Origin: a virus
Virus record (IMG/VR): IMGVR_UViG_3300030389_001862
Location: 1-23,083 of that record
Strand: one strand, 5' to 3'
Length of the DNA: 23,083 nt
A program made the translations under genes and the position numbers. A model generated the notes under the pieces. It was not told the origin of the DNA. It saw nothing but the letters and a program-made list of their open reading frames with translations, and did not search any database. This document shows, piece by piece, positions 13,463 to 21,103 of the stretch (position 1 is the first letter of the stretch; the number at the start of each line of letters is the position of its first letter).

Positions 13463-13476
13463 TTAGGGGCCCCTAA
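13463..13476. promoter_or_regulatory. 14-bp palindrome covering the terL ribosome site
   Basis: TTAGGGGCCCCTAA is a perfect palindrome touching the terL start codon. The AGGGG half is the only Shine-Dalgarno candidate. In RNA it could fold as a five-pair hairpin with a GGCC loop, hiding the ribosome site, or serve as a protein site. Function is inferred. Confidence 0.45.
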
Positions 13477-13489
13477 CAGTATCTTATTA

Positions 13490-13507
13490 TATGCGATTTA
13501 TGGCTTA
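13490..13507. promoter_or_regulatory. degenerate copy of the 18-bp palindrome at the terL promoter
   Basis: TATGCGATTTATGGCTTA matches one half of the repeated palindrome well (TATGCGAT against TATGTGAT) and the other half weakly (5 of 8). It lies just after the terL -10 box, where a repressor could block transcription. Confidence 0.4.
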
Positions 13508-13534
13508 TTATACTATAGTTAATCTTTATTTCAA
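13507..13534 (-). promoter_or_regulatory. sigma70-like promoter for terL
   Basis: On the minus strand TTGAAA is followed after 16 bases by a perfect TATAAT. The 5/6 and 6/6 matches make this the best promoter in the window. Transcription would begin about 35-40 bases before the terL ribosome site and could continue through the 551-aa gene and portal, since no terminator separates them. Confidence 0.65.
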
Positions 13535-14130
13535 ATTTTATGTAATTGTTTGTGAAAAACTTGGCACATGCCTGCGTGCACAACGGCCGTGGCACTCGAT
13601 TCGTTTTTCTTGTCAACTGCTTTTTTTTCTAATTTTTTAGCCTCAATTTTGGAAGGATCCTAAACAATTTTTATTGATTTTTTTTAATTCCTTCTGGAAT
13701 AAATTTATTAATTTACGCGCTTTGATTCGTGGATCGGGTACCAGCTGGGCGGGGTGGCGGGTCAAGAATCACGGTTCACGGTTCACGGTTAAATTAAAAT
13801 TAGTCACGGCTAAAAAAGTTTAAGCAGCATCTAATAAAGTTAGATTCATTAATACTTTAACGCGGATCCTCGGCGGGCTGGTGCTGGATCCGTGGGTTTC
13901 GGATCCGTCCGGACGTCCAGCGGTGCCTTATTTAACTGTTTTAAACCGTGATAATTTAAACAAGATAAATTGAAGTTATCCAGTAAACAGCCCGGCGGTT
14001 TTTTGTCAGCTGTATTGACTGACTCACCGGGTCAATTAATGGATAAGTTCACGGTTAAAAATTTAAATTGTGAAGGTTTCCGCGGGTTCTAGCTATTTAA
14101 ATTTAATCAGCTTGTAACGGAAGGTAAAAA
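13535..14130. other. gene-free region with short repeats and GC-rich patches
   Basis: No coding frame with a ribosome site is visible on either strand. The stretch mixes AT-rich DNA with GC-rich patches at about 13575-13600, 13735-13765 and 13862-13925. TCACGGT is repeated three times in tandem at 13769-13790, and related CACGGTTAA or AACCGTGA copies lie near 13945 and 14050. GGATCC hexamers occur four times. Many six-base palindromes (GTGCAC, CGGCCG, GGTACC, CAGCTG) cluster here. Position before terL suits a packaging (cos/pac) site or replication origin, but neither is shown. Confidence 0.5.
13769..13790 (+). repeat. TCACGGT x3 tandem repeat
   Basis: Three consecutive 7-bp units followed by TAAATTAAAAT; diverged single copies lie nearby. 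It is too short for CRISPR and could be a protein-binding iteron. Confidence 0.7.
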
Positions 14131-14158
14131 AGAAAAAAGCCCCATAAATGGGGCTTAA
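14131..14158 (-). terminator. rho-independent terminator of the 14.9-14.2 kb operon
   Basis: The hairpin AAGCCCCAT / ATGGGGCTT is followed on the minus strand by a run of T (A run at 14133-14138). It ends the operon containing the 215-aa protein and the 38-aa membrane peptide. Confidence 0.88.
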
Positions 14159-14176
14159 ATCGAGCTGAATAATTTA

Positions 14177-14293
14177 TTAATGCGGGTAAGCAATTAATAA
14201 AATTAAAATAGCAAATAATATAATTACTGGAAAAAAAAGCAGTTCAGTAATTAAAATAAAAATCTTCCTAAGTTTTAAATATTGTTTCATCAT
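14177..14293 (-). CDS. 38-residue single-helix membrane peptide
   Basis: Begins MMKQYLKLRKIFILITELLF and continues FPVIILFAILILLIAYPH, giving a basic N-terminus and one or two tightly packed hydrophobic segments up to the C-terminus. Its ATG overlaps the upstream stop by four bases (ATGATGA), so it is probably translated by coupling, and a terminator follows 20 bases after its stop. This resembles small phage membrane peptides that act as holin-like, superinfection-exclusion or host-modulating factors. Function is not known. Confidence 0.6.
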   Translation of the reverse strand: MMKQYLKLRKIFILITELLFFPVIILFAILILLIAYPH

Positions 14294-19463: not shown

Positions 19464-19898
19464 TTAATCAAAGATCAAGGAAAAAGTTTTTGGCCAGTCA
19501 AAAGGGTATTCTGTTTTGAAGATAGGTTTGAGTTTCAGGCCTTTTATTCTCAGGTCTACTGCCTGACTACCCGCATACAAATACATTGTATCTTGTGATC
19601 TAACAAGAACCCATACAGAAGCTCTGCTATGTCTAGTAAGCCAAGCGATTTGTAATGAAGATAGTCTAACTACATTGCCACTAGTAACTTTCAACTCTAC
19701 AAAATGAAATTGGTTTTTATCATCACAGATCATTAGATCAGGAATACCAAGTGTCATCCAGTTTTCTATTCTAGTTAACAAAATGTCTTTGGGTAATCGG
19801 CCGACGGCTTTTTTAATTTCTTGAAAGAACCCGCTTTCCTTCTTCGGCTGAACTGGTGGCCTCGTGGTCAATAACTTCTTCAGCGTATCTCGGTTCAT
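19464..19898 (-). CDS. VRR-NUC-like PD-(D/E)xK nuclease (144 aa)
   Basis: Small nucleases of this fold process branched or damaged DNA. The signature is GIPDLMIC (D54), a strand, then FHFVELKV (E68 and K70), the D-ExK set, followed by SSLQIAWLTRH with the conserved Gln (Q83) of VRR-NUC proteins. ATG 19898 has AAAGGA at good spacing, which supports an 86-base overlap with the small terminase gene. Pairing with TerS suggests a function in packaging or replication-intermediate resolution. Confidence 0.78.
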   Translation of the reverse strand: MNRDTLKKLLTTRPPVQPKKESGFFQEIKKAVGRLPKDILLTRIENWMTLGIPDLMICDDKNQFHFVELKVTSGNVVRLSSLQIAWLTRHSRASVWVLVRSQDTMYLYAGSQAVDLRIKGLKLKPIFKTEYPFDWPKTFSLIFD

Positions 19899-20373
19899 AT
19901 GAATCCTTTATTTCTTTGAGAGCTTTCAACACTTCATCCTTGGACATACTATCAATAGTACCATGACGGATTTCAGATTTGTTAATGTAGATATTACCAT
20001 TTGCCTGACCTCTCCTGAACTCAGCTTGTACAGCCGCTGAATATGCACCATTTTCTAATGCAACATCTCTTATTCTTTGTAAGTCTCGTAAATGTCTTTT
20101 GTATGTAACACCATACTTTTCATCCAGCTCGTCCCGATAAATCTGTATTGCCCTACAAACATGAGGACAAATATCCGGATTAGTCATTTCATATGCACGA
20201 GTGTGAGCCGAAGAAGCTGGGAAGCCAGCGTTTATTGCAGCTTCTCTCATGGTTATTGTTCCATCGTTGCTAACAAGTTCTTTTACAAACAGCTCTTGTT
20301 TTCGCGATAGCTTACTATGAATATCTACTTTAGGTCTTCCACGACCTTTTTTAATAGGCTTCAAATTATTCAT
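19813..20373 (-). CDS. terS: terminase small subunit (186 aa)
   Basis: Recognises the phage packaging site and feeds DNA to TerL. The N-terminus is basic (KPIKKGRGRPKVD); residues 21-66 hold the helix-turn-helix region (LSRKQELFVKELVSND, TMREAAINAGFPASSAHTRA); the middle is a long helix; RGQANGNIYINKSEIRHGTI (121-140) and DSMSKDEVLKALKEI follow as in Terminase_2-type subunits. It lies apart from TerL by about 6.4 kb. Only a weak GAG precedes ATG 20373, and a cluster of GTTACA repeats lies 80-180 bases upstream. Confidence 0.85.
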   Translation of the reverse strand: MNNLKPIKKGRGRPKVDIHSKLSRKQELFVKELVSNDGTITMREAAINAGFPASSAHTRAYEMTNPDICPHVCRAIQIYRDELDEKYGVTYKRHLRDLQRIRDVALENGAYSAAVQAEFRRGQANGNIYINKSEIRHGTIDSMSKDEVLKALKEIKDSYEPRYAEEVIDHEATSSAEEGKRVLSRN

Positions 20374-20451
20374 ATCTCTATATATACACCAGAAATTATT
20401 TTTTTACAAAAAACTTTTTGAGGCCCATTAAGGCCAAAATTGATTTAAGAA

Positions 20452-20552
20452 GGTTACATATTTGAAAACACAAGTGTAACCAATTATGTAACCAGTAAAA
20501 CTGTTGATACATAAGGGTTACAGAAGAAAGTTACATAAGTTACACCAGTTAC
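20452..20552. repeat. cluster of seven GTTACA/TGTAAC sites upstream of terS
   Basis: Within 101 bases the sites are GGTTACA 20452, TGTAACC 20475 and 20487, GGTTACA 20516, GTTACA 20530 and 20539, and GTTACG 20548. Both orientations occur, including inverted pairs. A binding site array for TerS (pac) or a regulator is plausible; a replication iteron is the alternative. Confidence 0.65.
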
Positions 20553-20595
20553 GCCTATATTTAATAAAAAAATATTTTTTTATTTTCAGCTCTAT

Positions 20596-20629
20596 ATATA
20601 AAGGGGAGTAACTTTTGTCACTCCCCCTT
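20596..20629 (-). terminator. probable terminator after the 155-aa gene
   Basis: A 7-bp stem (GGGGAGT / ACTCCCC), extended by two pairs after an A-C mismatch, has a four-base inner loop. It is followed on the minus strand by TTTATATATAG, which is a weak T-tract, so termination may be partial. Confidence 0.6.
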
Positions 20630-20635
20630 CTGTTT

Positions 20636-21103
20636 TTAAGCAGAAAGTTGTTTTAATACATCTTTCTTTGGATGAATATAATCTATAATAGCACTAACTA
20701 GTATTGTATGTGATTTATTTCTACCCATATATTTTCCGGCCTCTTCAAAAGCTTTTTGAAGTCCGAACTTATATATTAAATCCCAGACTATGGATTCGTT
20801 AGACACAGCTTTCAAGCTTTTGACCGCTTTGCCTTGAACATAAATAGTACTTTTATGACTACTAAAATTACTTTTATGAACTCTCACAAAATCCTGAATA
20901 TAACTCATTGGAAAATTACCTTTTCCATCAAAGTTTTTACTGGAAGTATAATAAGATGAGGAATAAAGACCATATGGATCACCCAAGGTATCGTAAATCT
21001 CATCTTTAGATAATTTACTCAAGAAAGTTTTTACTTTTCTTGCCATGATCTTATCAAACTTATTTGCTTTATTAATTAACTTTTGTTTTTCACTTTTAAG
21101 CAT
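20636..21103 (-). CDS. hypothetical protein (155 aa)
   Basis: No family recognised. A basic helical N-terminus (KQKLINKANKFDKIMARKVK) is followed by a Tyr/Ser-rich central part (DPYGLYSSSYYTSSKNFDGK) and an alpha/beta C-terminal region (VSNESIVWDLIYKFGLQKAF, then ILVSAIIDYIHPKK). No membrane or signal segment. TATAGGAG precedes ATG 21103, palindrome copy E lies 87 bases upstream of the start, and a probable terminator follows, so it is a single-gene unit. Confidence 0.72.
   Translation of the reverse strand: MLKSEKQKLINKANKFDKIMARKVKTFLSKLSKDEIYDTLGDPYGLYSSSYYTSSKNFDGKGNFPMSYIQDFVRVHKSNFSSHKSTIYVQGKAVKSLKAVSNESIVWDLIYKFGLQKAFEEAGKYMGRNKSHTILVSAIIDYIHPKKDVLKQLSA

Follow-up and report, generated by a model that had tools for sequence, protein, structure and literature searches.

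The pac site of phage P1 consists of hexanucleotide elements that form two groups inside the pac gene, are of the TGATCA type and are adenine-methylated. Lambda-type cosB contains several sites for the small terminase subunit (TerS) upstream of terS. Iteron origins near primase-helicases of the D5, VapE, or Cch type are composed of direct repeats next to A/T-rich DNA. In the pac sites of SPP1 and SF6, repeats extend across the terS promoters and start, and bent DNA with little sequence specificity has been proposed as the selected target, according to the available text of two papers (PMC4737164, PMC6316719). The boxA of SPP1 is missing from SF6, yet SPP1 TerS is replaceable by SF6 TerS. In SF6, the isolated domain bound DNA much the same with or without the box repeats; hence, such repeats need not be TerS sites (both points from the available sections of PMC4737164). 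In the accessible part of a 2022 review, the TerS of pac phages is described as making weak, sequence-independent contacts and that of cos phages as sequence-specific, and the recognition of packaging sites by the TerS ring is termed unclear and controversial (PMC9611059). For pelagiphages, the accessible parts of two papers from the open-access literature do not name a packaging site (PMC9599517, PMC12753301).

The window, meaning the whole stretch of DNA that was analyzed, comprises positions 1–23,083 of the 23,083-bp virus record IMGVR_UViG_3300030389_001862. It derives from a marine phage of the HTVC023P/HTVC027P-like type. Its nearest relatives by TerL and TerS are phage 023Pt_psg01, the pelagiphages HTVC027P and HTVC023P, and phage DSL-LC04. 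A 262-bp gap (20374–20635) separates terS from the open reading frame at 20636–21103, both being encoded on the minus strand, and this gap contains a repeat array. The terS product has no match in Pfam at E 0.001. The features of the region are the following:

19464–19898, minus strand: VRR-NUC-like nuclease gene immediately downstream of terS (Pfam VRR_NUC, E 0.00072, 20 bits, which is under the cut-off of 23.8; PHROGs 2165 and 93)
19813–20373, minus strand: terS, small terminase subunit, 186 aa (PHROG 51, E 2.1e-8)
20376–20386, minus strand: copy of TATATATAGAG immediately before the terS start (by motif)
20393–20411, no strand: second A/T tract, in the interval between array and terS (by sequence)
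20421–20435, no strand: G+C-rich element in the same interval, partly conserved (GGCC constant, rest variable)
20453–20552, minus strand: seven-core GTAAC/GTTAC array (by core positions, clustering, and conservation)
20552–20548, 20543–20539, 20534–20530, 20521–20517, and 20457–20453, minus strand: direct sites, GTAAC on the terS strand
20492–20488 and 20480–20476, minus strand: inverted sites, GTTAC on the terS strand
20556–20587, no strand: A/T tract that precedes the three direct sites and is kept beside them in relatives
20590–20600, minus strand: copy of TATATATAGAG at the array border away from terS (by motif)

A first-pass annotation had claimed seven GTTAC cores within 101 bp of noncoding DNA, in both orientations and upstream of terS, and the count bears this out. 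The cores are located at 20453 (+), 20476 (−), 20488 (−), 20517 (+), 20530 (+), 20539 (+), and 20548 (+), spanning 20453–20552. Six of the seven read GTTACA, the remaining one (20548) GTTACG. An eighth GTTAC (20608, −) lies beyond this span within a terminator-like stem. On the terS strand, three GTAAC sites follow each other in 9-bp steps, a fourth is placed 13 bp further on, and after a gap come two inverted sites and one direct site. The whole array is situated 80–179 bp upstream of terS. The total of GTTAC across the window is unremarkable (47 versus 40.4 expected). Seven cores are observed here within 101 bp. No shuffle gave more than four, a number attained by six of 5,000 dinucleotide-shuffled versions of the gap and by three of 300 shuffled versions of the entire window. 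When 5-mers of only A/T are set aside, the core of the array is the densest 5-mer class of the window. In the relative G001, a contig of 58,648 bp that is probably circular because of a 77-bp terminal overlap, the array is the sole cluster with more than two cores.

With the P1 pac site, the locus shares two clusters of short sites over about 100–160 bp beside a packaging gene; it differs from the methylated, TGATCA-type elements that P1 carries within the pac gene itself. With an SPP1-type pac, it has position and composition in common. The array is located at the putative terS promoter/start region, and its 9-bp direct repeats are flanked by A/T tracts, from which a bend is predicted. Unlike in SPP1 and SF6, the window array is made of seven direct and inverted sites in fixed steps and lies entirely upstream of terS.

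Read along the terS strand, the elements are arranged in the order TATATATAGAG, A/T tract, array, G+C-rich element, second A/T tract, second TATATATAGAG, and terS start. The A/T arm 20560–20578 is 84% complementary to 20393–20411. It may be speculated that TerL cuts at the G+C-rich element (20421–20435). The idea that TATATATAGAG is a general promoter was rejected: it has only three occurrences in G001, one at each border of the array and one elsewhere. Simple promoter matches are no commoner than in shuffles. This counts against an operator of an early/late switch, in which the sites would bind a putative phage-encoded regulator whose specificity diverges together with the array. The position of the array argues for such an operator: it fills part of the gap that precedes terS, and in the sister TerS group described below, it has early genes running leftward on one side and terS running rightward on the other.

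Querying IMG/VR with TerS yielded 80 loci of the window's type, 67 of which were scorable; in all groups, the unscored loci are those without a complete TerS or without 250 bp upstream. In 66 of the 67, four or more GTAAC/GTTAC lie within 130 bp of one another and begin 179–233 bp before terS. A comparison of this gap among related phages had been proposed in advance, and the array is indeed kept beside terS. Relatives have different genes on the upstream side of the gap, yet array and terS stay together, which argues for a pac-like element. In 20 hand-picked upstream regions, the GTAAC columns are 97.0% conserved and the spacer columns 71.4%, and one of 99 circular shifts equals the GTAAC columns.

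Two other TerS groups carry arrays with other cores at a comparable place, which is again consistent with a pac-like element. Loci of the HTVC023P type have CTAGGAAA-type sites, chiefly as direct repeats, with at least four in 58 of 69 scored loci (out of 80) and a median start at −189. In several loci of the DSL-LC04 group, CGTAAT sites are followed by inverted ATTACG at about −490, and two small genes separate the array of DSL-LC04 from terS. At least four CGTAAT occur in only 4 of 58 scored DSL-type loci (out of 70), the median being three. The 76 scored loci of the HTVC027P group (out of 80) lack an array of this kind beside terS. The scarcity of four-site loci in the DSL group, the intervening small genes of DSL-LC04, and the missing array in the HTVC027P group all weigh against the pac-like reading. 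A further 38 loci were selected by the array pattern itself and are excluded from the evidence. Among the HTVC027P-type loci (L357–L436), 63 of the 76 scored contain CAAGC repeats instead, which lie a median of 770 bp upstream of terS, and 023Pt_psg01 has seven CAAGC in 130 bp at −565.

The sister group was collected with the TerS of L139, which is 27% identical to that of the window, and comprises 80 loci. Herein, at least four GTAAC/GTTAC are present in 27 of 75 scorable loci. The layout is retained, with an A-tract, a triple of direct sites in 9-bp steps, and inverted sites whose spacing is mostly 11 and 8 bp; 96 of 104 pairs of neighboring direct sites keep the 9-bp distance. The core itself is rewritten and falls into 11 classes, assigned by eye in 73 of the 80 loci, including 11 classified loci without an automatic anchor. 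These are GTAAC (21 loci), GATAC/GGTAC (16), GTCTC (10), GTTAC (8), GGAAC (5), GTCAC (4), GTGGC (3), GGGATG (3), GTAGC (1), GTTAG (1), and GTGAC (1). One core is common to all three direct sites, the left ones, in 16 of 23 distinct site sets. This is expected for a single DNA-binding protein, i.e., for an operator, and is unexplained by a pac-like element if layout alone matters. Among the inverted sites, the right ones, a single core is seen in 5 of the 23 sets, and they frequently lag the direct sites. Pairing between inverted and direct sites extends over 13.6 of 15 positions, compared with 9.8 for mismatched sets. Beside the sister-group array, a family of proteins of about 70 aa (HQDVFLLMPQN...DGWxV) is present or absent and is enriched with some core classes; relative to terS, it is located at −530 to −315 in G033 (the contig of L471), near −536 in L476, and near −505 in L491.

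The cores of the sister group differ beside an unchanged TerS. In 16 locus pairs, which we grouped into six sets, none of the 135 TerS residues compared, the helix-turn-helix included, differs, and the cores do. L471, L473, and L474 have three different cores and a TerS that is identical over 180 residues. Since an identical TerS faces different cores, it does not read the core letters in this group, and base-specific reading of the core by TerS is rejected here. A core that changes together with the TerS DNA-binding domain, as in a cosB-type site, is likewise not seen in the sister group; in this independence from TerS identity, the array differs from lambda-type cosB, and cos ends were not seen either. 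In the window's own clade, the core is constant apart from a partial shift in L052, where several sites became GTAAT, and the comparison of core and TerS covers the sister group; the result may carry over to the window's clade. The first-pass annotation had named three options, namely a pac site bound by TerS, an operator, and a set of iterons. Of this, the association with terS is upheld by conservation, whereas recognition of the core bases by TerS fails in the sister group.

A further comparison is that of L498 and L499, in which 97 of 3,330 positions differ and 24 of these fall in the 120-bp array. TerS (179 aa) and VRR-NUC (144 aa) show no residue change. The differences focus on the array, with 36 of the 97 in 2 of 28 bins, which would suit an operator. 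Against the latter, the 3.3 kb surrounding the array are collinear at 97.1%, and no gene is swapped. VRR-NUC was dropped as a reader, given 0–3 residue differences in the nine comparable pairs, out of ten, with different cores. Among 43 ortholog clusters from 24 contigs, none clearly tracks the core, as judged without a permutation test, and this too speaks against a diverging regulator. One gene is linked to GTCTC arrays (10 of 10 loci versus 10 of 63 other loci). It was dropped as a reader because G030, which has a GTTAC array, carries it at 97% identity to the copy of G033, whose array is GTCTC. In these two contigs, TerL, portal, and capsid are identical or nearly so, and some tail genes differ. 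Taking both sides together, we regard an early/late-switch operator as unlikely.

An unchanged TerS, rewritten repeats, and a fixed spacing fit the picture known from SPP1 and SF6, where the repeat sequence varies between phages with interchangeable TerS near the terS promoter and start. A pac-like element is therefore rated highest among the individual readings. Specifically, the array may be the core of a cis element before terS that serves as a packaging start and in terS control and is read by its layout or bend; we favor this tentatively and would put it somewhat short of an even chance. The predicted fold of TerS may be similar to that of SF6/SPP1 TerS: the model has a mean pLDDT of 73.8, with higher values in the helix-turn-helix, and its best Foldseek matches are 3zqq, 2cmp, and 4zc3, which are weak (probabilities of 0.93, 1.00, and 1.00; E 0.056–0.16, none at or below 0.001). 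A TerS ring of the SF6/SPP1 type would engage the fixed layout of A-tract bend, 9-bp-step triple, and inverted sites. It would recognize this layout and disregard the core letters, after which a cut by TerL would follow close by. We infer TerS as the ligand, the array as the packaging start, and the location of the cut. The small effect of the SF6 repeats on isolated-domain binding, as given in the part of PMC4737164 that was available, counts against a pac-like element, and the bent DNA and differing repeats of the SPP1/SF6 pac described there provide its precedent.

A pattern scan that was blind to terS gave at least 117 loci, which are partly redundant. Among the matches listed, 57 of 117 have a terS-like gene on the same strand at most 400 bp downstream, and these loci, at least 57 in number, support the pac-like element. 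In L100, L110, L118, L205, and others, the matches proved to be collagen-like Gly-Val-Thr coding repeats, whose codon use mimics the 9-bp GTGTAAC pattern. Noncoding GTGTAAC triples adjoin genes of the primase or primase-helicase type in unrelated phages (L199, L202, L168, L192, L121, L177, and L181), with Prim-Pol, VapE-like, DUF927, and Cch helix-turn-helix domains. In L181, the array is placed between primase and terS. These triples are candidate origins. They weigh against a pac-like element and keep alive the option of an iteron-type replication origin, at which a phage initiator would bind the direct sites and the A/T tract would open.

The A/T tract that adjoins the short direct repeats is shared with iteron origins near primase-helicases; unlike there, terS and no initiator gene adjoins the array in the window's family. 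In G001, primase and PolA are kilobases away. A replication gene that adjoins the repeat and tracks it was not found, as terS takes this place and no domain is swapped in the primase, helicase, and PolA of G030 and G034, whose predicted starts differ and whose cores (GTTAC and GATAC) are similar. G033 is without the primase/helicase/PolA region. Despite their different cores, G030 and G033 share a 484-aa helicase at 100% identity; in the helicase comparison with G035, one stretch is only 37% identical. GC skew is uninformative as to an origin. On balance, an iteron origin appears rather unlikely.

The rewriting of whole arrays could also follow from their folding. The direct and inverted arms would then form a long imperfect hairpin, as a cruciform or in RNA, with conserved pairing. 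Standard pairs make up 92.6% of the 555 cells examined across 37 arrays of the sister group, compared with 69.5% in shuffles and 18.7–51.7% for slid partners; this alignment (A2) takes in 37 of 51 distinct anchored arrays and leaves out 14 diverged ones. Pairs change on both sides in 11 of 15 cases, and 109 cells are doubly changed versus 39.8 in shuffles. Inverted protein sites would covary as well, and further pair types show no excess (18 versus 18.8 in shuffles). The mean fold z is −3.56 for 17 sister-group arrays (every third) and −2.65 for 15 window-type arrays, compared with −0.36 for 10 coding controls. It amounts to −2.54 for the HTVC023P type (n = 15), although these arrays are mainly direct, and to −1.31 for the DSL group (n = 7); the window's own array has a z of −2.2. 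In L497 and L500, the outermost arms are altered jointly and separately from the other arms, as a hairpin would predict. A test for nested partners was in favor of nesting in four of seven informative site sets, with two ties and one against. Hairpins reportedly arise and persist through template switching, according to the accessible text of PMC8794818. Slippage and template switching might rewrite the arms together, so that a sequence reader would be needless. We consider such a structured element improbable.

In a broader form, the array would be an element in which layout and not letters counts. It would be either a packaging start read by geometry or fold and homogenized by slippage and template switching, or the target of a hidden, fast-evolving reader that diverges with it; the chance of this comes close to even, on the lower side. 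Phages with identical TerS and differently spelled arrays are natural material for the question of layout versus sequence. Should the ligand be something other than TerS, the concerted change of entire arrays would point to a further DNA-binding factor or a hairpin-driven process in these relatives of pelagiphages.

Contig ends were considered as physical genome ends and are not relied on, as the counts are weak and post hoc. The HTVC023P group has 16 usable left ends within 1.5 kb, and 8 of these lie at most 260 bp from terS (hand count, post hoc). In the window's group, 7 ends are near terS and about 20 further out, and the HTVC027P group has one. Three of the eight HTVC023P-type ends (contigs of L219, L233, and L253) fall inside one conserved element between array and terS and are possible physical ends noted post hoc.

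Elsewhere in the window, a long stretch without an assigned gene (13463–14289) lies upstream of terL. It contains three GGATCC in 44 bp (13864–13907) and a repeated CACGGTT and is possibly a second cis-acting element.
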